Part shown: positions 8,988 through 64,000 of the stretch, in pieces
Layout: every line of letters begins with the position of its first letter
Position numbering within the stretch: the stretch's first letter is position 1
Assembly (NCBI RefSeq): GCF_013520865.1
Contig: NZ_JACDXJ010000001.1
Span: forward strand, 4,449,501-4,513,500
Direction of reading: 5' to 3'
Length of the DNA: 64,000 bases
Source of the DNA: Microvirga mediterraneensis
GTDB lineage: Bacteria; Pseudomonadota; Alphaproteobacteria; Rhizobiales; Beijerinckiaceae
Translations under genes and position numbers: made by a program
Notes under the pieces: model-generated
Told to the model about the DNA's origin: nothing
Seen by the model: only the letters and a program-made list of their open reading frames with translations
Database searches by the model: none

Positions 8988-10846
8988 GGGACATCAGCCG
9001 CCGGACCATCCTCAGGACGGGAGCGGCAGGTGCCGCTCTTTCCTTGCTGCCGCGCATCGGCTTGGCACAGGAAGGCGAAACCGAGACGCATGGCCTCTCG
9101 AGCTTCGGCGAGTTGAAATACGCGCCGGACTTCAGGCATTTCGACTACGTCGACCCGAATGCGCCCAAGGGCGGCACGCTGGCGATCCAGATCAAGCAGA
9201 CCACGGGCAACCAGAACTTCGACACCTTCAACACGCTCAACGTCTTCGTGCTGCGCGGCGACGGCGCGGCCGGCATGACGGGCACCTACGACAGCCTGAT
9301 GGCCGGCTCGGGCGATGAGCCGGACGCGCTGTACGGGCTCGTGGCGAAGAGCGTTCGCGTCTCCGACGACAAGCTCACCTACCGGTTCATCCTGCGCCCG
9401 GAGGCGCGCTTTCACGACGGCTCGAAGCTGACCGCGAAGGATGCGGCGTTCTCGCTCAACATCCTGAAGACCAAGGGGCATCCGGTCTTCAACCAGCTCC
9501 TGACCCAGATGGAAGCGGCGGAGGCGGAGGCTGACGATGTCCTGCGCGTCCGGTTCACGCCGCAGCGCAGCCGCGACATTCATCTCGTCGTCGCCGGCAT
9601 GCCGATCTTCTCCGAGCGCTACTGGCATGGGAAGGATTTCGAGGCCTCCACGCTGGAAGCGCCGCTCGGCTCGGGTCCCTACAAGGTCGGTCGCTTCGAG
9701 GTCGGGCGCTTCATCGAGTTCGACCGCGTTCCGGATTACTGGGCCAAGGACCTGCCCGTGAATGTGGGACAGAACAATTTCGAGCATGTCCGCTACGAGT
9801 ATTTCCGTGACCGCACGGTAGCCTTCGAAGCCTTCAAGAACGGCACGCTCAACTACAACGAGGAATTCACGTCCCGCATCTGGTCGACGGGCTACGACTT
9901 TCCGGCCGTGCGCGAAGGCAAGGTGAAGAAGGAAGAGATTTCGAACGACGCGCCCTCGACCATTCAGGGCTGGTATTTCAACCTGCGCCGGGACGCCTTC
10001 AAGGATCCGCGCATCCGCGAGGCCATCGGTCTCGCGTTCGACTTCGAATGGACGAACGCCAACATCATGTTCGGCCTCTATCGGCGCACGACCTCGTTCT
10101 TCGAGAACAGCGACATGAAGGCGGTGGGCAAGCCATCGCCGGAGGAATTGGCGCTGCTCGAACCTTTCCGCGACAGGCTGCCGGCCAGCGTCTTCGGCGA
10201 TCCCGTCCTGCCGCCCGTGTCCGACGGGTCGGGCCAAGACCGGCGGCTTCTGCGCCGCGCCGACGAGCTCCTGCGCGAAGCCGGATGCAAGCGCGAGGGC
10301 GGAGTGCTCAAGCTGCCGAACGGGCAGCCCTTCCGGATCGAGTTCCTCGATTTCCAGCCCTCGCTTCAGCCGCATACGCAACCTTTCCAGGCGAACCTGA
10401 AGCGGCTCGGGATCGATGCCGTTTCGCGCATCGTCGACGCGGCGCAGTATCAGCGCCGGATGGACGAGTACGATTTCGACATGGCGAGCCGCAATCTCGT
10501 CGGCTCCTCCACGCCCGGCGACAGCCTGCGCATCGTCTACGGGTCGGCCGCCGGCAAGAGGCCGGGCGCGCAGAACATCGCCGGAATCGACAACCCGGCC
10601 GTGGATGCCCTCATCGAGACGATCGGCAACGCCAAGTCGCGCCAGGAGCTGAACGTCGCCTGCCGCGCCCTGGACCGGGTCCTCCGTTCGGGCCATTATT
10701 GGGTCCCCATGTGGTACCGGGCCAGCGAATGGCTGGCCTATTGGGACCAGTTCTCGCGCCCCGAGACCAAGCCCCGTCTCACCTCGGGAGCACCGGGGAC
10801 CTGGTGGTACGATGCCGAGAAGGCGAAGCGGATCGGAAGAGGATAA
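8984..10846 (+). CDS. yejA: Peptide ABC transporter substrate-binding protein (YejA-like, second copy, Tat signal)
   Basis: This 620-residue paralogue of the preceding binding protein shares the phrases [31 protein letters not shown] and [25 protein letters not shown] blocks. I set the start at the ATG of 8984-8986, which overlaps the upstream stop and gives a leader with SRRTILR followed by a hydrophobic stretch. That is a twin-arginine (Tat) signal, unlike the Sec leader of the first copy. The two proteins may feed the same permease with different ligands, or one may need folding before export. The frame extends further upstream, but only as a shadow of the first gene. Confidence 0.9.
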
Positions 10847-17995: not shown

Positions 17996-19249
17996 GTGAC
18001 CGACCAGCCTGACCTGTCTCCAGAAACCCAAGCCGCGCGAAGCCTTCTCTCCGCCGCTGCCGTCCGCGAACGGTCGCACCAGCTCCTGCGGGTGGGGCTC
18101 GAAGGCCGACTTCGGCATTTCACGGTCGATCCCGGACGCCTTGAGGCTTGCGCCGACGAGGTCGTCAAGACGATCCGCGAGGCTTATCCGTCGCTCGATA
18201 TCCCGTTTCATGCCCGATGGCGCCATTTCTCCGCCGGCGGCCATGACCGCTGGGATGCGGTGATGCACGGCGCCCCTTGGGAAACCGCCGCCGACATGGC
18301 CCGTGCCGCCTTCGATCTCGCCATCGTGTCCGTCCTGCTCGATGCGGGCGCGGGGGCGCAGTGGCGCTACGAGGAAGGCCGCACGGGCGAAACCTACACC
18401 CGGTCCGAAGGCCTGGCGGTCGCCAGCTTCGACATGTTCATGAGCGGCGCCTTCTCGAGCAAGCCCGAGGATCCGTTCCGCGTCGACGCCGATGTGCTCA
18501 TGACCCTCACACCCGAGGATCTGGCCGAAGGTTTCCAGGTCTCGGCCGACAACCCGCTCGTCGGGCTGGAGGGCCGCGCCGCCCTGCTGAACCGTCTCGG
18601 CCGCGTGGTCGCGACGAATCCCGACATTTTCGGGCAGGTCGACGATCCTCGTCCGGGAGGCCTCGTCGACGTCATCGCGGCGACCGAGCAGGACGGCAAC
18701 ATCCGGGCGACCTCGATCCTGGAGGCGCTGCTCACCCATCTCGGGCCGATCTGGCCGGGCCGGATCACGCTCGGTGGGGTCGATCTCGGCGATACATGGC
18801 GCCATCCCCTGGTCGACGCGCCGGATGTCACGACGGGGCTGATCCCCTTCCACAAGCTCTCCCAATGGCTCTCCTATTCCCTGATCGAGCCGCTTGAATG
18901 GGCCGGCCTCACCGTGGTGGACATCGACGGGCTTACGGGCCTGCCCGAGTATCGCAACGGCGGACTGTTTCTGGATACGGGCGTGATCGCCCTGAAGGAT
19001 CCGGCGGATGCAACCCGCCCCCACGCGGTCGATTCCGAGCTCGTGGTGGAATGGCGGGCCTTGACCGTGGCCCTTCTCGACCGCATTGCCGAACCGATCC
19101 GCGCGAAGCTAGGATTCGCCGCGAAGGATTTCCCTCTCGCCAAGGTGCTGGAAGGCGGCACCTGGGCGACGGGGCGCAGGCTCGCGAAGGAGAAGCGCGG
19201 CGACGGCTCGCCTCCTCTCAGCGTGATCAGCGACGGGACGGTGTTTTAA
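17996..19249 (+). CDS. DUF1688 / URC4-like protein of uracil catabolism
   Basis: This 417-residue soluble protein starts at a GTG and has no signal peptide. I recognise it as the DUF1688 family, of which yeast Urc4 is a member; its conserved-looking blocks include LDAGAGAQWRYEE, GLAVASFDMFMSG and IPFHKLSQWLSYSLIEPLEW. Its catalytic role is not fully established; in the URC pathway it is required for converting uracil nucleotide to urea and a C3 acid. It sits 101 bp after the URC1-like gene and 132 bp before upp on the same strand, and this context is the strongest evidence for its role. Confidence 0.88.
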   Translation: MTDQPDLSPETQAARSLLSAAAVRERSHQLLRVGLEGRLRHFTVDPGRLEACADEVVKTIREAYPSLDIPFHARWRHFSAGGHDRWDAVMHGAPWETAADMARAAFDLAIVSVLLDAGAGAQWRYEEGRTGETYTRSEGLAVASFDMFMSGAFSSKPEDPFRVDADVLMTLTPEDLAEGFQVSADNPLVGLEGRAALLNRLGRVVATNPDIFGQVDDPRPGGLVDVIAATEQDGNIRATSILEALLTHLGPIWPGRITLGGVDLGDTWRHPLVDAPDVTTGLIPFHKLSQWLSYSLIEPLEWAGLTVVDIDGLTGLPEYRNGGLFLDTGVIALKDPADATRPHAVDSELVVEWRALTVALLDRIAEPIRAKLGFAAKDFPLAKVLEGGTWATGRRLAKEKRGDGSPPLSVISDGTVF

Positions 19250-49957: not shown

Positions 49958-52900
49958 TTATATCACTATAAACGCCGACCTGTCCAGGGTTGCGCTATTG
50001 GCGAGCCACGCGAACATGACCGCTGCTGCCTCACCTGAGCCGTCCTCATCGAAGTAGAGCGCGCCGGAGTCGGGATCGTAGATGATCCTATGCGTGTCCA
50101 AGGTCGCCGCAGGCCCAACCACGAACACATCGTCCGTCAGTTCACCACCCTGATAGTCCCACAACTGGAACACATCAGCGCTCAGCCGAATAATGTCTTC
50201 TCCAGCGGTAAAGTCTTGGATGGTATCGAATTCGTCAGCGATCAGATCCGTATCGAATACGAAGGCGTCGTGGCCTGTGCCGCCCGTGAGATCATCGTAA
50301 CCATAGCCGCCATGCAGAACGTCATCGCCCCCGCCGCCGGAGAATGCGTCGTCACCTCTGCCGCCTTTGAAGGTTTCGTTCGCTGCGGTGCCCGTTCCGA
50401 TTTCATTGAACCAGTCGCGCACTGTAATGCTCATCTGCTTCTGGAATGTACCAGACCCATCCGAAACCTGGATTGTCACTGAGTGAGAGCGCGATACCTC
50501 GAAGTCGAGCTTGGTACCGTCGAGCACCTTCAATCGGTCGCCATCGATGTAGAACCGACCAGCCGCGTCTTGATCCGACAGAATCGCATTACCCGATCCA
50601 TCCGTGCCAATCACGAACTTGAACGTGTACGCTCCTGACGGTCCATCAGTATCGACTGGCAACAGAGAGCCGATCGTGAACCCATTCTGTGACCACTCGC
50701 GCGCCCAATTTCCAGACCAGCCAAGATCCGTTGGTGCTTGGTTCGCCTGCTCCGCCCCGATCGTCACAGTCTGCTCAGCCGACGCCACCCGAAGCTCGGG
50801 ATGAGCTACGTCATAAGCGACGATCGTAAACGTGTGGGTCGTGTTCGCATCCGTGTCGACGAGGGTCCGCGTCAGGCGCACCTGCCCGGACACTTCGTCA
50901 ATTTCGAATAAACCGTCATCACTCCTCAGACTCAGCGCACCGTTCACAAGGAACTTGTAGTGATTGATCCGGAACTGATCGTTCAGCACATCGGGATCGT
51001 TCGAACCAACAAGAACGAGACTCGTGTTGTCGAGGTCTCCAACCCGCAGCGTCGCAAATGTTCCGAAGGTCACCTCCGTCGGCGCCTCGTTCACATCCTC
51101 GAGGTTGATCGTGATGTCTACATGGGCGGACTCAAAGCCGTTGCCCTGCTGGTCTCTCGTCCATACGCTGATGGTCCAGCTGTGCTGCGTCAGCGTTTCG
51201 TAGTCGAGGCCCGCCCGCAGGGTGATCCTGCCGGTCGCCTGGTCGATATCGAACAGGCCGCTCTGGTCATTCATGAAGTACCGAAGATCAGCCAGGCTGC
51301 CGTCGTCGTGCGCGACGATCTGCGCTACGAACCCATTGGCCAGAACCGTCTCCAGGAAGCCGATCGTCGCGACCGCCGGTCCGGCGCCGCTGTTGACGCC
51401 GTCCACGACGGGCGCCTGATTGGCGCCCGTATCGTTGATCGCGATATGGATCGTGCTCTCGGTGTAAGCACCATGGATATCCACGGCCCGCACAAGATAG
51501 GGAAGATCCGGAATGTCTCCATCGACGAAGGCGTTGAGCACCTTTACAGCGCCGCCGACGATCTCGAACCGGTTGTCCTGGCTCCCCCGGTGCATGGCGT
51601 TGTCGTACCAGAAGCCGACCGCCACATCGTCATTGTCCGGGTCAACAACATGCAGGGTACCCACCTCTGACCCAGGCGCGGCGGTCTCGGCGATCGTCTT
51701 CCTTGCGGCATCGTCCGACCAGCCGGGAGCGACCGGGGCACGGTTTTGATCAGTCGATGTCTCGCCATCGGATGTGTTCACCGTGGCCCACGTGCTGACC
51801 GGGTAATGATATGCGTCCTGGACCGTAATCGAGAAGATATGCGGACCGATGAGACCATCGATAGGATTGTCGGGATCATAATGGGCCGGATCGTAGCGGA
51901 GAGCGTGAAGGATACCGTCCAGTGCATCGGCCGTACCCGCGAAGGTGATGGTCACGACGTTGCCTGAAGTCGCAACCTGCACACTCGGGTCATTCGGGTT
52001 ATAGCCGGTCAGCGTTCCGAGGTTTCCGTTGAAGGAGACCGTGACGATCAGCGTATCACCGTCGCTATCCGTCAGATCGATGCCACGGAATGGCGCCACC
52101 ACAGGACCGTCGTCGGTGGCGGGCGTCACCTGTGTTCCAGGGAAGAATGTCACGCTCGGCTCGGCATTCGGAGCCGGATCCGTGCCATGGGTCGTGCGGA
52201 CCGTCACCTGGGCCGTAACCGGCTCGTGCATGGGATCCTGAACCGAGATATCGAAGATCGTGCTCACGCCTGTCGGCGCATTCGACGCCGAGTCGTCGGT
52301 CGGATTGAATGACAAGCCGTGCAGGAATTCGGTCAAAGAACCGACATTAGCCGTGATGGTGTAGGTGCGAATACCATTCACGAGCGATGTGGCGACGTCC
52401 CACCCAAGTAAGCCTTCGAGCTCGCCGGCCGCATCACTGAACCGGATGGTCAGAACGAGGATGTCATTCTCCGCGTCCGTGATGCCGACGCCATAGAACG
52501 GGTAAACGGCGGAGCCATTATCCGTGGCCCATGTCGTGTCCGAACCCTGAGCGATCTCAATGCTGGGCGCTGCGTTCGTGATGCCCGAGCCATAAGGCGC
52601 CGTTACGACCTCCACCTGGCCCGTTACAGGAGAATGGGTCGAGTCCTGGACCGTGATCGTAAAGGCCGTCGTAACTGAAGCGGAACCCGTCAATCCATCG
52701 GTCGGGTCGAACGACAGGCCATGCAGGATCGCGTCCAGCTCGTCGGCCTTTCCCGTGAGCACATAGGTCCGGATCCCATTCATCTGCGTCCACGTCGTGG
52801 GAAGGCCGGTGCCTAGCAACGCTCCCGTGGCCGCCACGAACGAGATCGTCAGAACAAGCGTATCGTTCTCCGCATCCGAGATATCGACACCTCGGAACGG

Positions 52901-55900
52901 ATAAACGACAGGACCATCGCTCATTGCACCCGTCGTTTCCGTACCCGTCAGGATGTAGATCTCGGGCCGCATGTTGCCTGTGTCGTCGCCGTCCTGCGTA
53001 TGTACGGTGACATGATCGATCACGGGCAGGTGCAAGGCATCGCTCACGCTGATGGTAAAAACGGTGTCAACCGCTCCACTATCCGCCGAGCCATTCTGGG
53101 GATTGAAAGTCAGATTATGCAGAGCAGCATCCAGAGCATCCGCTTTACCGACGAACCTGAAGGTGACGGTTCCATCCGCATTCGAGACGAAGGTGGCACT
53201 GCCCGCGCCTTGAAGCTGGTCCGCCGTACCGCTGAAGGTAATCGTCAGGACCAGATCGTCATCCTCGGCATCCGACAGATCCACGCCCCGGAACGGATAG
53301 ACGGCCAAGCCGTCGTCCATCGCATTGGTCGTTCTCGTATCGGGCGCAATGAACAGAACCGGACGCCCGTTCGCGCTCGACTCGGTTACCACCGTCACCG
53401 TTTCCGGCGCATCGATGAGCAGATGGAGACCATCCGAGAGGGCGAAGGTGAACGTCGTTGTGACTAGCCCGCCTGCGGCGGAGTCATTGGTCGCGTCGAA
53501 GGTGACGTTGTCAAGGAAGGTTTCAAGATCTGCTGCCTTTCCGACGAAGAAGTACGTCACGAGCCCCTGATTGTCGGGAGCACTGTAACCTACACTTACG
53601 GTTCCCGGGACCGTATCGATATTGCCGAGCGTCCCGTTAGCGGCACGGAATTTCACACTTAGGGTAATGGTATTGTTTTCGCGATCCTCGAGATCGAGAC
53701 CGGCAAAGGGACGTACCACGCCGGCATTCCCCTGGCCATTGTCCAGAACAACGAAATGCTCCGCATCGTTATCGATTGTCAGAGTCGAATTCTCGTTGGC
53801 CGGCGTGTCGATGATGGTGACGGTTCGGGGTTGAGCGGCCGTCGCACCGTGAGTGTCCTCGACTTGGACCGAGAACTGGGTCGCCCGATCCGGCCGACCG
53901 GCGAATTGATCCTCCGGATTGAAGGTCAGTTGCTGGACGATCTGGTTCACCCAGCCAACGGCTCCCTTGACCGTGAAAGTATTGTTCACCGGATCATAGA
54001 AGTAGTCCCGATTCTGCTGGCCTAAAGCGCTGGTAAGAGAGCCGTGACTGCCGTCGAACGTGATAGTGACCGTGATCTCATCGTCCGGTCCGGCGTCATC
54101 ATCCTCGAAGGAGAAGCCCTGGAACGGTTTGGTCGTCCCCGTATCAGGGATGGTCCATTCGGTATCGCCGCTGACGAGGATTTCAGGCGCGATATTCAAT
54201 GCTCCAACAGTGAACGTGACGGCCCGAACAATGGTGCTGGCATCGGGACCGGCGCCATCCATGACCTTCACATAGAGCGTCTTCGTTCCGGCTGTCAGCG
54301 CCCCGTTCACGACGATGTTGCCACTCGCATCGACCCTGAAGTCGGAGCCTGTGTAAACAGTATTGCCCGATGGATCTGTCACGAGCTGGTAGTGGAAATC
54401 GCGGAACTCCGGACGTTCGTCGGGATCCTGGATCGTGATGGTCGCAGCCACCGTATCAAGCGGCGCTCCGACGATGATCCCATCGGCGGGCGGATATGCT
54501 GCGGGCGGCGCCTCGTTCACGTCCGTGACGTAGATCCTTAGCGTCTGCAGATCTGAGGTCTGGTTATGATTGTCGGTCGTCGTGACGCTGATTTCATACC
54601 ATCTCGTTTCCACTCCCGTGTCTGGATCGATCCACCGATGGAGACGCGGGTCGTTGCTTTCGTAATCGAGCGGACCAGTCGCGATGACGCGCCATGCACC
54701 GTCGCTGTAGACCAGTGAGAACAAACCTCCAGCGTTGTCGACAAGATTGATACCCTCGAGCGTGTCGCCAAGATCGGGATCTATGGCAGAAAGGGTACCG
54801 ACGAACGCACCGGCCTCAACAGTCTCACGAACCACGTTGTCGGCGATGCTGGCGATCGGGGCGAGGTTGCCCACGTCATTGATAATGATCGTGATCGTCG
54901 TCCTGGATTCCGCGCCGAACTGATCCTTGACGACGATCGCGTAGTCACGGCTCTCGCCGTTGGGAGCGACCTGGATCGGCGCACCCGTCCTAAAGACCTG
55001 GTTATTCACGATGCGGAAAGCGCCATCCGCGCTGACATCGGACGGACCGGAAGGAAGATCGAAGAAGAACGTGATCTCGTCATGCTCAGGATCCTCTGCC
55101 AGCAGCTCTGCGACGTAGGCTCCTCCCGGGATCGTTTCGTCGATGACGCCGTCCTGCATCCCCCATAGGTGAGGAGCCTCGTTCACATCCTGAACGTAGA
55201 CCTGGATCGTCGTGTACTCGGAGTACTGACCGGTCTCTAGGTCCTTGGCCCTAATCTGGAGAAGGAAAAATTTCTGCTCGTTCGCTCCGACTCCTATGGG
55301 GGTCAAGCCATCCGTATCAGAATCGTAATTGACAGTTCCCCTGAAAGCGATTTGCCCGGAGGATGAGACAAAGAACCGGTTGCCATAATTGTTAGCCATC
55401 TCATAAGTGAGCGACCTGCTTCCGTCGTCATCCGAGGCGACATTCACGACCGGAGTGAGGCTGTCATATACGAAGTCATCGATCAGAATGATGGGAGCGC
55501 CCGTCGGTAAGGGAGTGCTTGGCGGGCCAGTCAATGTCCCGTGCACGGAGTGTACGACGATATCCGGCGTGATAGTGGCCTGCCCGCCCTGCCCGTCCTG
55601 AACAGCAATCCGGAAGGTGGTGTCATCAATGCCGCTTGTCGCAGCGGGTCGGTCAGTCGGATTGAACTTCAGGGTGTGCAACTGATTGAGCACGTTCTGC
55701 AGGGAACCGATGATCGTGTATGCTCCTTCATGCACGCCACCGTTCCCGTCGACGAATGCGCCGCCGAACTGCCCTAGGGCAGTAACCGTCACCGAAATAG
55801 TATCGGTAGTGTTCGGATCGACGATGTTCACGCCCGCGAATGGCGTAACGAGATTAGTGTTCTCATTGTCAGCGATAGTGAAGCTCGCAGCCGGTGCAGT

Positions 55901-58900
55901 GATCGTCGGTGCCGTATTGCTTGTATTCTCTGGATTGATCGTAAAGGTTACAGGTCGGACGATGTTGAAGGAAGTTCCGCTTGAGTTACTGACTCCTCCG
56001 TGGTCGGCAACTTTCACCCAGAGAGTGATCGAAGATGGAGTCAGTGCACCCGACACGCTGATCTGCCCGGTCGTAGCATTGATCTGGAACGGACCCGTAT
56101 AGGTGGTATGACCGTCAGCTTGGACGAGTGAAAACACGAAGTTTTCGTTCGGTCCTGGAAAATCCGGATCGTCCACGGTCGCGACAGTCGCGACGATCGT
56201 ACCTGACGGCGCATTAGAAGCGATGGAGGAGACGACGTTGAAAGTTGCGTTCGTCAGAGCTTCGTTCTGGTCGAGAATATAGACCCTAATTTCAGCAGGA
56301 TCAGAAGCTAGGCCACCGTACTCCTCCTGTGCTACGACCCTGAGCAGGTAATAGCGACCGCCAGTCTCGGGATCCACGAGAAGCCCCGGATCCTCATAGT
56401 CTAAGGCAGCCACGGCCCGGATTACAAACTGGCCGTCGCTCTGTTCGATCTGGAATTTAGCCTTGAGCGCGTCGGAAACACTGCTGTGCCATTCATAGAT
56501 GATGGGATACTGTTCTGGATCGTAGGAATCGGAGCCCGCCCCAACGATGTAGCCACTCGTATTCTCGTAGACCTCACCCTCTTCAACAATTGGAGTGGTC
56601 GGCGCATCATCCACATTCATGAGTGTGATGGTGAGCATTTGAACCGAACTCGAGAGGCCACCCGGATCGGTGGCCTGAACGAATATTTTGACGATCCCCC
56701 CTATGTGACTCTCGTAGTCCAGCGTAGCCGTAGGCTTTAGGGTGATGATCCCTGTAGCAGGATCAATATCGAACAAGTTGTTGGAATTGCCGGGCTGATT
56801 CACGAAGCTGTAGCGCAGGTCTACATCACCATTAGGATCCGAAGCGATTACATGGAAAGGGATCTGTGTTGAGTTCTCAGGGATTGTAAAGTCGATCGCG
56901 TTATTGCTCCACTTGGGCGCATTCGGCGCAAGGTTGTTGGGGGTTAACGTCGTGTTGACATGGATCGAATCGTAAGTGACCGCTGAATGCTGGTCATCTT
57001 TATACGTGATGGTGAACTGGGTGGTTCCCGCCATTCCGTTCGTCGGATCGAAGGTCAACGCGCGAAGCGCAGCCGTGATGGAGGCTGGAGAGCCTGAGAA
57101 GGTGTAGGCAATTATCCCGTTGCTGCTCTGTATGGTGGCCGTACCAGCATTTCCAAGTAGGCCGTTTGCCTCGGCGAACGAGATCGTCACGACAAGATTG
57201 TTGTTCTCCGGGTCGCTCAGAGTCACACCCCGGAATGGATTGACAATCGAACCATAGTCGAAAGCCGCCGTTGCAATTGTGCTCGGGTCAACGGAGATCG
57301 ATGGTAGGGCATTTGATCCGGCTGTCGCACTCGCTGTAATGACGCGAATTTCCGGAGCTGACACCGGCAGATGTAGAGCGTCTTTCACCTGGATATTGAA
57401 CAAGGTGATATTCGCACGCCCATCCGTTGGATTGAAGCTGAGACCGCGAAGAAGGGCCTGAAGCTCCCCAGCCTTACCGGTGAAAGTGTAGATCCGGGTT
57501 CCGTCAACTACGACGCCACCAGATAGTCCGCCATTATCGAAAGCACCGTCATCGTTGGGGAAAGAGATTGTTACCTCAAGATCGTCGTCCTCCGAGTCAG
57601 TGAGCTGCAATCCTCGGAAAGGTTTTACGGAAGGCCCCGTATCGACAGCATACGTATCCCACGTACCCTCCTCGACATCGACCACTGGAGCCTCATTCGA
57701 GCCGGAGTTGCTGACAGTCGTCTCGACGTGAATCTGGCTGTTGCTGACGGCCTGATGCAGATCGTCCTTCACCTTGATCGTGAAATTAGTGCGATTGGCT
57801 ATGCCATTGCTGGGATCGAACGTTGCATTTTGCAGGATGTTGGTCACCGCACTCGCCGACACACGGAAACTTATCGTGTGAATACCGTCGATGTATGTAC
57901 TGGTAATTGCTGCTTCGCCAACAGATAAGAATCCATGGTCCGATTCATATGAGACCTCGATGGTGACAAAGTCATTTTCTGGATCGCTCACGACGACGCC
58001 GCGAAAGGGCTTCACGGCAGGCCCCACATCGGTCGCGTATGTCGACACCGTATTCGGATCCACAATGATCACCGGTGGCGAGTTCGAGGTCGTGTTGCTG
58101 GCGCTCGTAATCACGTGGATCTGATCGTTAACGACCCAATCATGATACCGATCCTTGACCGCGAGGGTAAATTCTGTGGTGTTCGCATACCCGTTGGTTG
58201 GATTGAAGGTGAGCGCGCGGACGAGGTTCTGGAGGTTCAATCCCTTTCCTGTGAACGTATACGTGATGATGCCCGTGTTTGGATTGAAGGAACTCTGCGC
58301 GGAGCCATAGCTCGCGAGATCACCGTCCGACTTTTTGAAGGATAGGGTGAAGGTGAGGTCATCGTTGTCGAGATCGTAGAGCCGGACTCCTCTGAAGGGG
58401 GAAACTGGATCTCCCGTGTCGACCGCATAAGTCCTTTCGTCTCCTGTCGCCACAGTGAGCGACGGCAAGGAATTCACCATTTCATCGACTACGACTACAT
58501 AGTCGATGGTTTTTTTGAGAGCGGGATTGCTTTCATCCTCGACTTGCACATGCAGTACATAAGTGCCTGGCGCCGTGAATTGCGATCGGGTCGTAACCTG
58601 ACCAAAAGCATCGATCATGAACATGCCGCTGTCGTCGACCCGCGTGCCGTTCGTAAAACTGAATACGTTATTGCGGAAGCTCGACACCGTATCCGGATCA
58701 GTCCAATTGAACTTGATCACCTGCGACCCTGGGTCTGTCTCCCATGCGCGGATTGCATGAGGGTTCGCGTATGTCAGCGTGTCCGGAGCTTCGTTGACGT
58801 CTCTAATCTGAACACCAATGCCGAAGATGGAGGAGCGGCCCGTATTATCGGTCACGCGAATTGTAACCTGCTGAAACGGGTTGATCGCCTCATAGTTGAG

Positions 58901-60205
58901 GGCTGTCTTCAGGCGCAGCTGATCGCCAACGATTTCAAATGCCGGGTTATTGATATTGTATGCAGTATTCTCAAGAGCGTAAGTGAAGGTACTCCCGGCA
59001 TCGTCGTCGACGCCGAGCAAGGTGCCCAAGGAAACGTTAGAGACATTTTCGTTGACGGATACGCCTGCCCCATTGTTGATCTTAAGGCCTTTTGGGGCCT
59101 CTGGAGCATCGGTAATGTAAACCCGGAGAACGGTGTCCGAGTAGTGCCCTACCTGGTTTGTCGCCCGCACGACAACGTCAGCCACTCCCCCCGGCCAGGC
59201 TTCATAATTGACATTGTTCGCGACGAGAAAAATCTTACCATTGTCCCATTGAGCCGAGAAGCCTGAACTGGGGTTCATCACCTCAAAGGACAGTGCTCCG
59301 TACCTCTCCTGGTCGGTACCGGTGAGCTCGCCGACCCTGATGTTGTACGCATTCTCGACCGGAGAAGTCCCGTTGATGATTCGAACATCGGTCGGATTCT
59401 CAGCGACATCCGTCAGGTCAAACGTTATTGTTGCCTGTGAACCCGATCTGCCGTCGGAGGCCGTGACCGTTGCGCTGATCTTGTGATCAGCGTAAGCCTC
59501 ATAATCGAACTTGCTCGGATCCTCGACGTAGAGCCTGCCCAAATCATCAATCGAGAAGCCGGTCCCGGGATCCACTCTCCAAATGATGCTATCACCGTCG
59601 GCATCCCTCGACTGGAGGTACCCGAGCAATGTACCGTAACCGAGATTCTCGGTGATCGTGAGATTGCCCGTAAACTCCGGTGTTGACGGCCTCGCTAAAG
59701 GCACTGGACTTTCAACACCCGAGAATGTGGGTGCTCCCCCCTCCGGTGCTGGATGAGACAATGCTGCGATCAGCTCGTATGATGCGATCAGTGCCTCACT
59801 GGACGAGTCATCAGCCGCACCCCCCTCCTCCCCACCTGGAGCGGCCGGCGCGAGAACCGCCTCGTCTTGCGGCCAAAGGGGGACCTCCGTGGAATGCGAC
59901 AGGACTGAATCGAAAGCGCCCTCATCCAAGCCGTGCAACTCGTCGCCATCACTCTTAATGGTTGAAGCAATGCCCTGAGTCTGAAGGATCGAGGAGCGGA
60001 CCTCACCATCGGACAAAGACTCGTAAGCCGTCGCGGAAGCGGCCTCTCCCATAATGGACCGTCGCCCATCGAGTTCGTCGACTAGGAGGTCGAGGGCTAG
60101 ATTCGTTGGCTCTGTCGGGGCTGAATCGCCCGGCAACGTTTCGTCGATCACCTTGCCGACATTGACAGGCTTTCCGGTGACCTTGTCGAAAACGGGCTTA
60201 TTCAT
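49958..60205 (-). CDS. Giant RTX adhesin with cadherin-like and PFRG-type repeats
   Basis: This protein has about 3415 residues from the ATG at 60203-60205, with GGGGA 7 bp upstream. It has no Sec signal. The first ~165 residues are acidic and low in complexity. The body alternates cadherin-like segments with about eleven copies of a ~100-residue repeat. Its landmarks are VxPFRGVxLxDxExD, a VTISF strand, FTGKAxxLxxxLxxLxFNPT, a TxFxIxVxDxxHxPV strand and VxT. Four copies lie in a row at about 580-1065 and five at about 2140-2810. A short RTX block (about 3270-3330, GGRGDDAFSGGGGDD) and a C-terminal secretion tail end it. The pattern fits BapA/LapA-like biofilm adhesins exported by type I secretion. 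No transporter gene is in the window. Composition is less GC-rich than the core genes. Confidence 0.87.
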   Translation of the reverse strand: MNKPVFDKVTGKPVNVGKVIDETLPGDSAPTEPTNLALDLLVDELDGRRSIMGEAASATAYESLSDGEVRSSILQTQGIASTIKSDGDELHGLDEGAFDSVLSHSTEVPLWPQDEAVLAPAAPGGEEGGAADDSSSEALIASYELIAALSHPAPEGGAPTFSGVESPVPLARPSTPEFTGNLTITENLGYGTLLGYLQSRDADGDSIIWRVDPGTGFSIDDLGRLYVEDPSKFDYEAYADHKISATVTASDGRSGSQATITFDLTDVAENPTDVRIINGTSPVENAYNIRVGELTGTDQERYGALSFEVMNPSSGFSAQWDNGKIFLVANNVNYEAWPGGVADVVVRATNQVGHYSDTVLRVYITDAPEAPKGLKINNGAGVSVNENVSNVSLGTLLGVDDDAGSTFTYALENTAYNINNPAFEIVGDQLRLKTALNYEAINPFQQVTIRVTDNTGRSSIFGIGVQIRDVNEAPDTLTYANPHAIRAWETDPGSQVIKFNWTDPDTVSSFRNNVFSFTNGTRVDDSGMFMIDAFGQVTTRSQFTAPGTYVLHVQVEDESNPALKKTIDYVVVVDEMVNSLPSLTVATGDERTYAVDTGDPVSPFRGVRLYDLDNDDLTFTLSFKKSDGDLASYGSAQSSFNPNTGIITYTFTGKGLNLQNLVRALTFNPTNGYANTTEFTLAVKDRYHDWVVNDQIHVITSASNTTSNSPPVIIVDPNTVSTYATDVGPAVKPFRGVVVSDPENDFVTIEVSYESDHGFLSVGEAAITSTYIDGIHTISFRVSASAVTNILQNATFDPSNGIANRTNFTIKVKDDLHQAVSNSQIHVETTVSNSGSNEAPVVDVEEGTWDTYAVDTGPSVKPFRGLQLTDSEDDDLEVTISFPNDDGAFDNGGLSGGVVVDGTRIYTFTGKAGELQALLRGLSFNPTDGRANITLFNIQVKDALHLPVSAPEIRVITASATAGSNALPSISVDPSTIATAAFDYGSIVNPFRGVTLSDPENNNLVVTISFAEANGLLGNAGTATIQSSNGIIAYTFSGSPASITAALRALTFDPTNGMAGTTQFTITYKDDQHSAVTYDSIHVNTTLTPNNLAPNAPKWSNNAIDFTIPENSTQIPFHVIASDPNGDVDLRYSFVNQPGNSNNLFDIDPATGIITLKPTATLDYESHIGGIVKIFVQATDPGGLSSSVQMLTITLMNVDDAPTTPIVEEGEVYENTSGYIVGAGSDSYDPEQYPIIYEWHSSVSDALKAKFQIEQSDGQFVIRAVAALDYEDPGLLVDPETGGRYYLLRVVAQEEYGGLASDPAEIRVYILDQNEALTNATFNVVSSIASNAPSGTIVATVATVDDPDFPGPNENFVFSLVQADGHTTYTGPFQINATTGQISVSGALTPSSITLWVKVADHGGVSNSSGTSFNIVRPVTFTINPENTSNTAPTITAPAASFTIADNENTNLVTPFAGVNIVDPNTTDTISVTVTALGQFGGAFVDGNGGVHEGAYTIIGSLQNVLNQLHTLKFNPTDRPAATSGIDDTTFRIAVQDGQGGQATITPDIVVHSVHGTLTGPPSTPLPTGAPIILIDDFVYDSLTPVVNVASDDDGSRSLTYEMANNYGNRFFVSSSGQIAFRGTVNYDSDTDGLTPIGVGANEQKFFLLQIRAKDLETGQYSEYTTIQVYVQDVNEAPHLWGMQDGVIDETIPGGAYVAELLAEDPEHDEITFFFDLPSGPSDVSADGAFRIVNNQVFRTGAPIQVAPNGESRDYAIVVKDQFGAESRTTITIIINDVGNLAPIASIADNVVRETVEAGAFVGTLSAIDPDLGDTLEGINLVDNAGGLFSLVYSDGAWRVIATGPLDYESNDPRLHRWIDPDTGVETRWYEISVTTTDNHNQTSDLQTLRIYVTDVNEAPPAAYPPADGIIVGAPLDTVAATITIQDPDERPEFRDFHYQLVTDPSGNTVYTGSDFRVDASGNIVVNGALTAGTKTLYVKVMDGAGPDASTIVRAVTFTVGALNIAPEILVSGDTEWTIPDTGTTKPFQGFSFEDDDAGPDDEITVTITFDGSHGSLTSALGQQNRDYFYDPVNNTFTVKGAVGWVNQIVQQLTFNPEDQFAGRPDRATQFSVQVEDTHGATAAQPRTVTIIDTPANENSTLTIDNDAEHFVVLDNGQGNAGVVRPFAGLDLEDRENNTITLSVKFRAANGTLGNIDTVPGTVSVGYSAPDNQGLVTYFFVGKAADLETFLDNVTFDATNDSAAGGLVTTTFTFALSDGLHLLIDAPETVTVVTESSANGRPVLFIAPDTRTTNAMDDGLAVYPFRGVDLSDAEDDDLVLTITFSGTADQLQGAGSATFVSNADGTVTFRFVGKADALDAALHNLTFNPQNGSADSGAVDTVFTISVSDALHLPVIDHVTVHTQDGDDTGNMRPEIYILTGTETTGAMSDGPVVYPFRGVDISDAENDTLVLTISFVAATGALLGTGLPTTWTQMNGIRTYVLTGKADELDAILHGLSFDPTDGLTGSASVTTAFTITVQDSTHSPVTGQVEVVTAPYGSGITNAAPSIEIAQGSDTTWATDNGSAVYPFYGVGITDAENDILVLTIRFSDAAGELEGLLGWDVATSLVNGIRTYTITANVGSLTEFLHGLSFNPTDDSASNAPTGVSTIFDISVQDPMHEPVTAQVTVRTTHGTDPAPNAEPSVTFFPGTQVTPATDDGPVVAPFRGIDLTDSDGDTLIVTVSFNGNLGTLTGYNPNDPSVQVATSGNVVTITFAGTADALDGILHALRYDPAHYDPDNPIDGLIGPHIFSITVQDAYHYPVSTWATVNTSDGETSTDQNRAPVAPGWSDDAARKTIAETAAPGSEVGTLHVVDPDNDDVAVGFWYDNAMHRGSQDNRFEIVGGAVKVLNAFVDGDIPDLPYLVRAVDIHGAYTESTIHIAINDTGANQAPVVDGVNSGAGPAVATIGFLETVLANGFVAQIVAHDDGSLADLRYFMNDQSGLFDIDQATGRITLRAGLDYETLTQHSWTISVWTRDQQGNGFESAHVDITINLEDVNEAPTEVTFGTFATLRVGDLDNTSLVLVGSNDPDVLNDQFRINHYKFLVNGALSLRSDDGLFEIDEVSGQVRLTRTLVDTDANTTHTFTIVAYDVAHPELRVASAEQTVTIGAEQANQAPTDLGWSGNWAREWSQNGFTIGSLLPVDTDGPSGAYTFKFVIGTDGSGNAILSDQDAAGRFYIDGDRLKVLDGTKLDFEVSRSHSVTIQVSDGSGTFQKQMSITVRDWFNEIGTGTAANETFKGGRGDDAFSGGGGDDVLHGGYGYDDLTGGTGHDAFVFDTDLIADEFDTIQDFTAGEDIIRLSADVFQLWDYQGGELTDDVFVVGPAATLDTHRIIYDPDSGALYFDEDGSGEAAAVMFAWLANSATLDRSAFIVI

Positions 60206-60928
60206 GGTGATGTCCCCTTCTGTCCACTTGCAGACGCCGGAACTGCTGGAGCTCAGGCGAATGTTACAATGTTTGAGACATTTAAGGACAAACCGGCCAA
60301 GCTGACAGCTCTCCAATCAGAGAGGTGCCCAGAGGAAATGCCGGATTCGAGATTATTTTCCGAAGCTAAAGGACGCCGAGCTCCGCGAGCAAATCCATGT
60401 CTTTCCGTTGAGAAGACAAAGCAGGGGGGGGAGTGCGGAGCGAACTATCCTGCTGCTTTTTCTTGGAGTGAGAACATCAACCTATTAACTGTCTCACGAG
60501 ATATTCAGCAATTCTGAGAAGGATGGAGCAAATACTACGATCAACAGGAGCAGTTGCAACCGATAGCTGCATCATCTTGCTACAATGCACGATGGCCCCG
60601 CGATATTGCAAAGAGAGGCGCGGGACGGAAGGCAAGGCGCCACGAATGAGCTCCTGGGCCGAACTCTCACGATGTTCGAAGGAAGCCGAAGTGCATGTCT
60701 TCCGCCGGATACTAAGCGAGGTGTTTCTCAGGAAACTGAGCGGTCTTGGCCCATAATGATCGGGAACCCGAAGGTCGATACCTTTGAGAAGGGTAGCCAT
60801 CGCGATACACGTCCGCCACGACCTCAGGAGCAACCCGCCCCTCGTCAGAGCAGATAAACTGTCACATAAAGCTATTCGTGAGTTCCGCTCGAACCTCCGA
60901 CACGAGGCGAGCTGCAAATTTGAACCTT
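60206..60928. other. Intergenic region upstream of the giant adhesin
   Basis: These 723 bp have lower GC than the core regions. Apart from the possible promoter at 60263-60291 I see nothing. Frames on both strands (the longest about 146 residues on the minus strand) lack motifs and are rich in residues typical of out-of-frame reading. Confidence 0.5.
60263..60291 (-). promoter_or_regulatory. Possible promoter of the giant adhesin gene
   Basis: On the minus strand there is TTGTCC (60286-60291), 17 bp, then TGTAAC (60263-60268), about 58 bp before the start codon. Spacing is ideal and the boxes are moderate, so this is tentative. Confidence 0.35.
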
Positions 60929-60972
60929 TGGCGCTCCCTAGGGGACTCGAACCCCTGTTTTCGCCGTGAGAG
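60929..60972 (-). other. attR-like remnant: 44-nt 3' end of tRNA-Glu(CTC)
   Basis: Read on the minus strand, the segment begins in the anticodon loop (CTCTCAC, anticodon CTC). It runs through the 3' anticodon stem, the T arm (AGGGG-TTCGAGT-CCCCT) and the acceptor strand AGGGAGC, discriminator G and encoded CCA, as in tRNA-Glu. Beyond 60972 the sequence no longer matches a tRNA: there is no D arm, 5' acceptor strand or anticodon 5' stem. This is the core usually duplicated when an element integrates at a tRNA 3' end. Its orientation puts the element on the right-hand side. Confidence 0.8.
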
Positions 60973-61341
60973 AACTACAACACCAATCATCTTCTCAATA
61001 AGATCAACGGGTTAAAAGAGACCCTGTAGTCATTTCCTGTAGGCAATGTCTTTCGTCATCTTCGCCTGGGGAAACCGGAGCAGGTCCAGGCTCATCCCAT
61101 ACAGCGCCGGGCGAGTTTCCCCCGTGTGGGGTGTGCCTGTCCAATGGGAGAGTCGGCCCGTACCACACCGTTGATACCTATGCGCTCATGCCTTGAGTGC
61201 CCCGCTTGGCCTGCTATGAATGAGGCCGAGCGACTGCGCCAAGAGCCAGGAATTCAGCGGCGGGCCTCTTTCGATTACCACCTCAGCTATATAATCGTAA
61301 TCCGCGTAAAGGGCTGTCGAAGGAAACCCAGAGGAGACATT

Positions 61342-61677
61342 GTGAAAGTCTTACTTGTCGCGGCTTGCACCGTCCTAGCCCTCTCTAGGACCGTCTATGC
61401 GGACGAGGTGTCGGACCTCAGGGATCGCGTCCAACAGCTAGAAAGCCGCATTCAAGAGATTGAAGCTGGCCAGTCCACCTATGTCCACAAGGATGAGGAT
61501 GAACAAAAGGAAGCAGCTAAGGCCGGGTTGAGCCTGAACGATAGCTTTTGCAAGATGGGCGCTGAAATGGCCTGCAAGGAAGCTGCGAAGCTCCGTGTCA
61601 AGGGGCACACGATCTGGCCAGACAATCCACGCCAGGCCACCTACCAATTCTTTCCGGAAGGATCTCCAAAGCTCTAA
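61342..61677 (+). CDS. Small periplasmic coiled-coil protein, function unknown
   Basis: This is a 111-residue protein. The GTG at 61342 is preceded by GAGGAG 5 bp upstream, which decides the start over a longer frame. The signal peptide is residues about 1-20 (hydrophobic core then VYA-D). Next comes a short coiled coil (VSDLRDRVQQLESRIQEIEAG, about 23-43), then a region with two Cys about 9 apart (SFCKMGAEMACKEAAK) that could form a disulfide. It ends in IWPDNPRQATYQFFPEGSPKL. No family recognised. The same frame stays open after the stop, with a further coding-like stretch to about 61890, hinting that the ancestor was longer. Confidence 0.7.
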   Translation: MKVLLVAACTVLALSRTVYADEVSDLRDRVQQLESRIQEIEAGQSTYVHKDEDEQKEAAKAGLSLNDSFCKMGAEMACKEAAKLRVKGHTIWPDNPRQATYQFFPEGSPKL

Positions 61678-62071
61678 TCCTATCTCACAAGGCTCAAGGA
61701 GGCTGCTCGATGCACTACGCCCCAACTGCGGGACGTACATGCCCTGCGAGAGGAAGCCAACGGACGCCCGAGAAAGGACCCCACTGGCCCGAAGGGTGTC
61801 TACTCGATCAGCATGGACAGTCTCGGCAATCTTGAGGTGGATAAGGATGGCCCCCTATTGGGACGGAGCCCTGATCGAGACGCGTAGCCCCAAGGTGCCG
61901 CGGCGTACGATCATCTGCCGCCTCGATTAAACCCTGGCGTATGATCTGGATAAACGCTGGATCTTAAGCTCTTCCGGCGCATCCCAATGGAGAGCCCCAG
62001 AATTCCTTGCTCCCCGAATTGGCATTTAATCATAACTGTGCTGTCCTAAGGCCAAGCATCTCCGCAGCAAC
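61678..62071. other. Intergenic region with a possible decayed reading frame
   Basis: After the stop at 61677 the same frame continues without a start to about 61888. Part of the text looks protein-like (GVYSISMDSLGNLEVDKDG). This may be the tail of a once longer gene or an unrelated fragment. Nothing is recognised from 61930 to 62071. Confidence 0.4.
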
Positions 62072-62503
62072 ATGCGAAGGAGTACACCAGGAGGAGGCAA
62101 AGCTGCGTTGGCCGCTTCGGCAGGACCCAGAAGCCAGTCTTGTAAAACCGTGAAGGGGGCAACTGGCTCCTTGCGGGGCATTGCTCTGTTTGGGTTGGTC
62201 TTCGATGAGCTGTCGAGGCAACTCGGGGATGAGTTCTCGACCGCTGAACTCATGCAAGCGGCCCAACATCTAATTGAGATTTCAAAAGGCGAGTACGTCG
62301 AAGCTACAGTCCGGGACTACACTGGCCGACCTAGTTACTACTCACAGGACGTAGCTATCTTGGTCTCGACTCAACCGTGGAAAATCTGCTGTTTTGAGCT
62401 GCCGAAGCTCGACCATTGCGACCACGAGGAACTAAGCCTGGAGGCACGCCAGAGTATCAAGGAACTTCACCAAGGTTGGCATGAGTATGTGTGGGACTAC
62501 TGA
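62072..62503 (+). CDS. Hypothetical protein, first gene of the island cassette
   Basis: It is up to 143 residues long. From about residue 42 the text looks like real protein (LVFDELSRQLGDEFSTAELMQAAQHLIEISKGEYVEATV), with mixed helices and an acidic C-terminus ending HEYVWDY. The first ~40 residues look like non-coding sequence, so the true start is probably an internal TTG or other codon that I cannot fix. Its stop is immediately followed by the next ATG (TGAATG). No family is recognised. Position at the head of the HTH-HNH-helicase series suggests it belongs to the same system. Confidence 0.55.
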   Translation: MRRSTPGGGKAALAASAGPRSQSCKTVKGATGSLRGIALFGLVFDELSRQLGDEFSTAELMQAAQHLIEISKGEYVEATVRDYTGRPSYYSQDVAILVSTQPWKICCFELPKLDHCDHEELSLEARQSIKELHQGWHEYVWDY

Positions 62504-62776
62504 ATGACATCTGCAAATTATCAGCCTGCTATGGCGCTACGGGAGCACCTGCTTGAGGGACACCGGGTATCGTTATTAGAGGCCATACTTCTTTTCGGCG
62601 TCCAAAGCCTTAATGCGGAACTAGCCCGCATGAAGAAAGAAGGTTTCATCGTCAAGTCGCAACGTGCTCCCATGGCGAAGATTATTCGCCGGGTCAACGA
62701 ATATACGATCTGTAAAGTCCCTGACGCGCTGCCATACAGAGAAATCCATATGACCGAGTACTGGATCAGCCGATGA
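62504..62776 (+). CDS. Small helix-turn-helix-like protein of the island cassette
   Basis: This is a 90-residue protein. Residues about 13-55 (LREHLLEGHRVSLLEAILLFGVQSLNAELARMKKEGFIVKSQ) have the pattern of a winged helix-turn-helix: helix, turn, recognition-like helix, then a basic wing. Similar small proteins occur in phages and islands. It starts directly at the previous stop, and its own stop overlaps the HNH start (ATGA). It could regulate the cassette or be a DNA-binding subunit; sequence alone does not decide. Confidence 0.65.
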   Translation: MTSANYQPAMALREHLLEGHRVSLLEAILLFGVQSLNAELARMKKEGFIVKSQRAPMAKIIRRVNEYTICKVPDALPYREIHMTEYWISR

Positions 62777-62985
62777 GCAGGAGGCTTTTCTCTGACCGCC
62801 AGAGAAAGATCCTGAGACTACTTGCCGGCAGCTCTTGCCAAAAGTGCGGGCAGCCGCTCGACGCCAGCTTTCATGCCGATCATAAGCAGGCTTTTTCGAA
62901 AGGCGGCAAGACCATCCTTAAGAACGGCCAGGCTCTATGTCCAACATGTAATCAACAAAAGGGGAATAAGGATGACGCAGATTAA
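62773..62985 (+). CDS. HNH endonuclease
   Basis: This is a 70-residue minimal HNH nuclease. A zinc-binding CQKC (Cys22, Cys25) and CPTC (Cys56, Cys59) frame the metal finger. Between them lie the catalytic DH (FHADHKQAFSKGG, His37) and the Asn of LKNGQ (Asn51), followed by NQQKG. It is much shorter than restriction enzymes and close to phage and island HNH proteins. Its start overlaps the HTH gene by 4 bp, and its end overlaps the helicase start by 14 bp, so expression is tightly linked. Target DNA is unknown. Confidence 0.88.
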   Translation: MSRRLFSDRQRKILRLLAGSSCQKCGQPLDASFHADHKQAFSKGGKTILKNGQALCPTCNQQKGNKDDAD

Positions 62986-64000
62986 CTTGCGACCGTGGCA
63001 GGCTCAGGCAATCAGTAAGGCCATCACTTGGCTTGTTGAGACCCGAGTTGATCGACACTTTCTGATTAATGCAGCACCCGGAGCAGGCAAAACGATCTGC
63101 GCATCTGTTATTGCACGTCGGCTGATCGAAGCCGATGAGATTGACCGAGTGATTGTGATCGCTCCACGATCTGAAGTCGTAAGACAATGGGCGGAGGAGT
63201 ACAAGGTTGTTACTGGCCGCAGCATGACAAAGGTCACAGGCGCTCATGCCGAGATCGAAGACTATGGCACTGATTTATGCGCTACATGGTCAGCAATTCA
63301 GGGATTACAGGACGGATTTCAACAAGTCTGCCGAGCATCAAGGACTTTGGTGATCTGTGACGAGCATCACCATGCAGCTGTCGAAGCAGCTTGGGGCGCG
63401 AAGGCAGATGGAGCCTTTACCGATGCTAGATACGTTCTTGTTCTCACAGGAACCCCCATTCGGTCGGATGGGCAGGAACCTGTCTGGTTTGGGTATGATA
63501 GTCTTGGAAGGATAGACCACCCTCAAGAGGGCACATATACACTCTCTTACGGAGATGCAGTTGACTTAGGATACTGTCGACCGATCACTTTTCATCGGCA
63601 TGAAGGACGCTTCTCTGTTACGCTTCCGGATGGAGACAATATAGCTGTCTCAGGTACTGCCGAGACCGAACTAGGTACCGAACTTAAGCGCATCAAAGGC
63701 TTGCAGCAGGCTCTTGATTTTTACAAGCTTGCTTGCACCCCAAAATATTTAGCTGATGGAGAGACCCCCGATGTGGAATCTTATCAAGCATCAATGCTCC
63801 AGTGGGGCATCGCAAAACTCAACGACATCCGCCACCTGATACCCAACGCAGGCGGGCTTGTGATTGCTCCAAACATTGCTGTGGCAGAGTACATGGCAGC
63901 TTTGCTTGAACAACTTGAGGGGGAACGACCTGTCCTTGTGCATAGTCAGCTAGCTAATGCAGAGGCTCGCATCAGCTCCTTCAAAAATACGGACAAGCGT
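62972..64000 (+). CDS. Superfamily 2 DEAD/DEAH-like helicase (3' end outside the window)
   Basis: The frame is open from the ATG at 62972 to the right edge, giving 343 residues. The start RPWQAQAI is followed by Walker A AAPGAGKT (34-41), a motif Ia-type IVIAPRSEVVRQW (61-73), motif II DEHH (130-133) and motif III LTGTP (158-162). A second RecA-like domain begins at about 285 (GGLVIAPNIAVAEYMAALLEQL) and is cut. DEHH instead of DEAH and the ResIII-like layout fit restriction- or defence-associated helicases. It overlaps the HNH gene by 14 bp. The gene symbol and the full domain set need the missing part. Confidence 0.88.
   Translation, partial: MTQINLRPWQAQAISKAITWLVETRVDRHFLINAAPGAGKTICASVIARRLIEADEIDRVIVIAPRSEVVRQWAEEYKVVTGRSMTKVTGAHAEIEDYGTDLCATWSAIQGLQDGFQQVCRASRTLVICDEHHHAAVEAAWGAKADGAFTDARYVLVLTGTPIRSDGQEPVWFGYDSLGRIDHPQEGTYTLSYGDAVDLGYCRPITFHRHEGRFSVTLPDGDNIAVSGTAETELGTELKRIKGLQQALDFYKLACTPKYLADGETPDVESYQASMLQWGIAKLNDIRHLIPNAGGLVIAPNIAVAEYMAALLEQLEGERPVLVHSQLANAEARISSFKNTDKR

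Follow-up and report, generated by a model that had tools for sequence, protein, structure and literature searches.

We find that the DNA at positions 60923-60972 of a 64,000-nucleotide (nt) stretch of the Microvirga mediterraneensis chromosome (hereafter the window, meaning the whole stretch of DNA analysed; G000:C1:4449501-4513500, where G000 is the source genome) is almost certainly the left attachment site (attL) of an integrative genomic island, 18.0 kb long, whose insertion point is the anticodon loop of a chromosomal tRNA-Glu(CTC) gene near an rluD-like gene. Positions 60929-60972 are the reverse complement of the 3' part of tRNA-Glu(CTC), 44 nt running from the anticodon loop to the CCA end, and ARAGORN calls no tRNA gene in the window. 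The original prediction had read this match, which lacks a 5' half, as a remnant left by tyrosine-recombinase integration, and had placed an intact minus-strand tRNA and an integrase to its right, with the accessory genes from about 61 kb belonging to the element. All of this is borne out by the flanking sequence and by the ends of the island described below.

A BLAST search of the source genome (5.35 Mb, 8 contigs) returned one further perfect copy of the 50-bp sequence at 60923-60972, in direct orientation, at G000:C1:4528454-4528503. The repeat runs 6 nt beyond the CCA end of the remnant, and its right copy forms the 3' portion of an intact minus-strand tRNA-Glu(CTC) gene, called by ARAGORN at 18460-18535 of the right extension (L006, G000:C1:4510001-4530000; window position equals L006 position plus 60500). 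The element measures 18,031 bp between the starts of its two overlap (crossover) regions, only its left 3 kb falls within the window, and the genes to the right of attL lie between the two copies of the repeat. A tyrosine integrase gene (L006 17145-18434, minus strand) ends 25 bp from the intact tRNA, and a pseudouridine synthase gene, for which the label rluD is our own, occupies L006 18631-19629 on the other side. A tRNA-Glu(TTC) gene elsewhere in the genome differs from a 27-nt probe by 2 mismatches. The features of the left end are as follows.

60923-60972, minus strand: attL, the displaced 3' end of tRNA-Glu(CTC) (60929-60972) with 6 flanking nt; left island boundary and one copy of the 50-bp repeat
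60966-60972, minus strand: GTGAGAG anticodon loop, predicted 7-bp crossover (overlap) region, within the stretch common to the ends of related elements
61023-61046, plus strand: predicted arm-type sites of the integrase, two 11-bp direct repeats with a 13-bp period (CCTGTAGTCAT, CCTGTAGGCAA), like the pair at the integrase end

We propose that the island's own attachment site (attP) would have carried an identical 3' tRNA half, such that integration would restore a complete tRNA gene on the right and displace the original 3' half and its native flank to the left. The enzyme is likely to be the DUF6538-type tyrosine integrase encoded beside the rebuilt tRNA; we predict that it binds the 11-bp arm repeats in tandem at the left and right ends and exchanges strands within the GTGAGAG loop.

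The integrase and its predicted arm sites

The integrase open reading frame (ORF) matches DUF6538 (E 3.4e-09) and, narrowly, the Phage_integrase family PF00589 (27.3 bits, cut-off 27.1) in Pfam, and has a weak match to the XerC model (E 4e-07) that falls below that model's cut-off. Its upstream end, starting with TTG, overlaps arm-like sites, and the true start may therefore lie further in. Tandem pairs with a 13-bp period occur at both island ends (L006 523-546 and 18411-18434). A strict pattern for such pairs, built from the source genome and a locus of genome G024 and not from genome G045, finds 5 sites in 3 of 48 genus genomes and only the two island ends in the source genome, with none for a reversed-pattern control. 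A looser pattern, written after the sites of genome G007 had appeared, finds 7 sites in four of the 48 (G000, G007, G024 and G045), again with none in the control. Integrase matches at E<1e-100 come from the same four genomes, out of 19 of the 48 with matches at E<=0.001; a genus-wide search with PF00589 was uninformative, given that several integrases were among the matches listed in every one of the 48.

The spacing of the predicted sites is closely similar in these four elements. The distance from overlap to arm pair at the far end is 51 bp in the source genome, 50 in G045, 49 in G007 and 53 in G024, and that from arm pair to overlap at the integrase end is 62 bp in the source genome and 63 bp in each of the others. 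Across the four, the stretch common to both ends narrows to the anticodon stem-loop, TCGCC-GTGAGAG (GTGAAAG in G007), and the 7-nt anticodon loop is therefore the likely overlap. The G045 element has the same layout, spans 5.8 kb in tRNA-Glu(CTC), and carries at its far end an arm pair with one mismatch beside a tRNA remnant. The G007 element (L142, G007:C3 565070-573910) also shares the layout over 8.8 kb, with arm-like pairs at both ends and an integrase 53% identical to that of the island. It lies in tRNA-Glu(TTC), and this integrase subfamily therefore uses both glutamate isoacceptors.

Recurrent use of the tRNA-Glu site

Comparison of the window with 29 loci of relatives (L040-L068; alignments of at least 80 columns) indicates what lies outside the island to its left.

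49958-60316, minus strand: giant repetitive ORF of 3452 amino acids (aa), adhesin-like by eye, a chromosomal neighbour outside the island; related sequence in G003 and G021
60317-60922, no strand assigned: native chromosomal sequence separating the giant ORF from attL, to the left of the island; recurs in G003 and G021

Loci of G003 and G021 both match the giant ORF, and each also carries the sequence adjoining attL, at 94% identity over 60885-60972 in G003 and 90% over 60887-60946 in G021. The left flank of attL is thus native chromosome. Including the 6 flanking nt, the remnant measures 50 nt in the window, against 60 in G003 and 24 in G021, and the DNA beyond it differs in each; in G021 it lies on one contig with the intact tRNA, about 24 kb away, and a different integrase stands beside that tRNA. 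This pattern is the one expected of separate insertions into one site, and the tRNA-Glu gene is a recurrent target. The synteny emerged from longer flanks, as the 1.5-kb tRNA flanks of the relatives gave no BLAST match to the flank of attL in the window.

A sequence search across the 48 genus genomes matched all of them, mostly through the tRNA itself. Twenty candidate second copies were fetched, and ARAGORN called no tRNA in 18, an intact one in G042 and an odd one in G055; the other copy in G042 is without a called tRNA. Remnants of at least 44 nt and at least 94% identity, with no tRNA called, are present in at least 11 of the 48 genomes (G000, G003, G007, G011, G041, G042, G044, G045, G049, G050 and G052), a count that leaves out weaker matches in G006, G013, G022, G043, G055, G057 and G058 and a second one in G050. 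Pieces of 23-24 nt lie on the tRNA's own contig in three more (G021, G048 and G051). In G020 and G062, the sequence past the intact tRNA resembles 60901-60928 (91% and 93% over 72 nt including part of the tRNA) and contains what appears by eye to be a terminator-like hairpin.

The original prediction had also looked to related genomes for an empty site, and had taken conservation of the same remnant and flanks in all relatives without an insertion as evidence to the contrary. That contrary pattern did not appear: the site is differently filled in G003 and G021, whose remnants are cut elsewhere and adjoin other DNA. A strict empty site, with the flank of the giant ORF joined directly to an intact tRNA, did not appear in the matches of the 48 genomes.

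Some further observations concern these relatives. The G021 island at the same tRNA (L041 143-3391, G021:C228) begins with the gene of another tyrosine integrase, after which comes that of a C5 methylase. In G003 (L042 1-340, G003:C280; L065 about 9937-9996, G003:C322) the host tRNA-Glu(CTC) looks split around a 7-bp shared core, GGACGTC; the element there carries a complete tRNA-Glu(CTC) about 170 bp inside, the same upstream stretch occurs in G050 (L104), and a scan of six nearby ORFs gave no integrase match. Sequence related to the start of the giant ORF lies far from the tRNA in G017. Elsewhere in the window, a bacterial small signal recognition particle RNA is found at 1718-1814 on the minus strand.

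Cargo genes

The part of the cargo that falls within the window consists of five ORFs.

61126-61677, plus strand: ORF of 183 aa from GTG, no Pfam match over cut-off
62072-62503, plus strand: ORF of 143 aa, no assigned function
62504-62776, plus strand: small winged-helix protein, HTH_39 (E 1.7e-05, over cut-off)
62773-62985, plus strand: small HNH nuclease (PF01844, E 7.6e-13)
62972-64000, plus strand: superfamily 2 (SF2) helicase (ResIII/DEAD, weakly RadD-like, zinc ribbon), running past the end of the window to L006 4139

A later start near 61342 would make the first of these a signal-peptide-like protein with a coiled coil, as judged by eye. Beyond the SF2 helicase, L006 encodes a 316-aa putative nuclease, Vsr, a Dcm-type methylase and three proteins that we call D (482 aa), C (493 aa) and B (376 aa); further cargo comprises A (264 aa), a serine resolvase, an RNase H and several proteins of no assigned function. 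The C5 methylase and Vsr, as expected of a type II restriction-modification system with Vsr, are recognised by PF00145 (8.9e-34), PDLC03324 (9e-122) and TIGR00632 (9.4e-36). A Mesorhizobium record lists, under tags 03815 and 03835, proteins related to the 316-aa protein and to C. Taken as a set, Dcm, Vsr, the putative restriction nuclease and the nuclease-helicase trio B-C-D most likely serve in defence against phage or other foreign DNA.

A potential alternative is that, rather than a defence-carrying island, the element is a decayed prophage, or else is conjugative or mobilizable. An RNase H gene would fit such an origin, as would a KilAC-like match that is weak and under cut-off (E 0.0054), yet Pfam scans of 18 chosen island ORFs found no capsid, portal, terminase, relaxase or type IV secretion family, and the ORFs outside these scans mostly overlap scanned ones or are shorter than 90 aa. 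We therefore consider this alternative unlikely.

A putative nuclease-helicase trio

The trio is made up of B, a probable iron-sulphur (Fe-S) PD-(D/E)XK nuclease, C, of unassigned function, and D, an Upf1-like helicase. A search for C scored 7996 candidates, of which 198 pass E<=0.001 as relatives, and the best 120 of these supplied an alignment of 43 sequences. In a scan of genome contigs, 9 of 160 pattern stretches encode a relative. Homologs of B, C and D adjoin one another in all nine of these loci (counting L134, with a partial B and a D split in two, and L137, with C split in two), A is present in three, and Dcm with Vsr in one (L132), so that the module stands next to Dcm and Vsr in the island and one other locus. 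One viral contig encodes A, B and the start of C before the contig ends. The genomes that hold the trio together range from Geobacter and Accumulibacter to Gemmata and Streptomyces, and among 297 sampled genomes of the order C is found only in the source genome and, as a weak match, in G323, where C and D match at 28-30% and B has no match.

Fe-S nucleases of the Cas4/AddB/Dna2 type combine a PD-(D/E)XK core and a Q-x3-Y motif with one N-terminal and three C-terminal cysteines. By eye, an alignment of B shows E-x-K, Q-x3-Y and C-x3-C-x5-C in all ten rows (the partial L134 is left out, and L131 and L139 are nearly the same protein), and the N-terminal cysteine in all nine rows that cover that region. 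In Pfam, B has only an MmcB-like match below cut-off (E 0.0026), and a sequence search against solved structures found none for B and three weak DNA2 chains only for D (E 0.065), whose helicase motif is DExxQ. Two models submitted to Foldseek gave no match at E<=0.001 for either. A search of PADLOC at E<=0.01 left A, B, C and the 316-aa protein without a match; D had weak ones only.

A tentative interpretation, to which we give slightly less than even weight, is that the trio is an undescribed anti-phage system built as a split Dna2-like machine, with B as the nuclease, a two-domain C, and D as an Upf1-like helicase core. In such a machine, C would have two joined parts: an exonuclease-like fold, in which the first acidic motif appears to be missing, and a Sen1/IGHMBP2-like barrel segment. 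Among the titles and opening lines of abstracts searched, no paper was found on the island, the integrase subfamily or the trio, nor any linking DUF6538 with an integrase.

Alternative origins of the tRNA remnant

Several observations weigh against an integrated island with the ends proposed here. Besides the lack of a strict empty site among the genus genomes, the single 11-bp arm word is by itself not rare in L006: CCTGTAGGCAA, with at most 2 mismatches, has 11 matches there where 4.1 would be expected, a count of 11 is reached in 2 of 200 shuffles, and four of the 11 matches make up the two tandem pairs at the island ends. The looser pair pattern draws on three of the four genomes in which it occurs, G045 being its one unforced hit. 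The next-best integrase match in the genus, a partial one with a stop codon in G049 (E 3.1e-21), has no arm pair that we could find, and the integrase is rare, with one of 397 sampled genomes of the order matching at E<1e-40, namely the source genome. The far arm pair of G024 (L073/L141, G024:C64 near 100313) lies on another contig beside a 16-bp core of the anticodon stem-loop, with no tRNA remnant there, and may be a secondary attachment site or an eroded end. GC content was tried and rejected as a marker of the left border, which it fails to show since the AT richness of the adjacent giant ORF is similar to that of the island. Finally, that the island can excise today is something we infer.

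The remnant might instead stem from an older, lost element, the present 18 kb being a composite or a replacement that used the same tRNA. The tRNA is a recurrent target, the remnants of relatives have several lengths and share one left flank, and a serine resolvase lies in mid-island, all of which would be expected to some degree under such a history. On the other hand, the arm pair at the left end resembles that at the integrase end and lies at the spacing seen in related elements, so that the remnant and the present integrase fit together, and searches of the source genome found no additional tRNA-Glu(CTC) 3' end within the 18 kb. We regard this history as very improbable. A segmental duplication of the tRNA gene, which can also yield tRNA pieces, or a chance resemblance with no integration scar merits next to no credence: a perfect 50-bp repeat in the same orientation 18 kb apart excludes chance, the repeat stops at the anticodon loop with an integrase adjacent and arm-like pairs at both ends, and other DNA occupies the site in relatives.

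Comparison with known systems

Integration of a single island into the anticodon loop of tRNA-Glu(CTC), our preferred reading, agrees with the scheme outlined for Islander, in which an intact tRNA gene (tDNA) and a 3' fragment in the same orientation mark the ends of an island of 2-200 kb with a tyrosine integrase between them, and in which a table assigns 2083 of 3919 islands to an anticodon-centred crossover class (PMC4383910). Here too, an intact tDNA stands at one end, a tyrosine integrase lies in the interval of 18,031 bp, and the 3' fragment is in the same orientation, displaced downstream, outside any coding domain and about 600 bp from the giant ORF. With respect to that outline the mechanism of integration does not differ; the cargo and the integrase subfamily are what is specific to this element.

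In tRNA-dependent lysogeny, putative arm-type site pairs flank the attP core (Guerrero-Bustamante and Hatfull 2024; PMC10865867). As far as that account extends, the island is similar in having a lambda-like tyrosine integrase at a tRNA gene and paired arm-like sites, and differs in that its core is not a short one that leaves the tRNA unrebuilt: at 50 bp it rebuilds the host tRNA, so that a carried tRNA is unneeded. The different element in G003 does resemble the tRNA-carrying type of actinobacteriophages described there. For the cargo, the closest parallel is offered by UvrD-Cas4 fusion proteins in Dcm/Vsr loci, which have been proposed as defence components (PMC5704561). Both combine a Cas4-like nuclease and a superfamily 1 helicase beside Dcm and Vsr, whereas, compared with the fusions as presented in that source, the island has nuclease and helicase as separate genes, a DExxQ helicase and a third, 493-aa partner.

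Significance

A whole mobile element was correctly predicted from a 44-nt fragment read by eye, and its ends provide an unusually clear attachment-site anatomy (core, overlap, arm-like sites and fixed spacing) for a DUF6538 integrase subfamily. Within the genus, this tRNA-Glu gene emerges as a site of repeated integration. The island itself is an ordinary tRNA-Glu insertion; the greater interest lies in the B-C-D trio, which occurs across distant genomes, has two members (B and C) without a match in the defence library searched, and is worth following for a role in phage defence.

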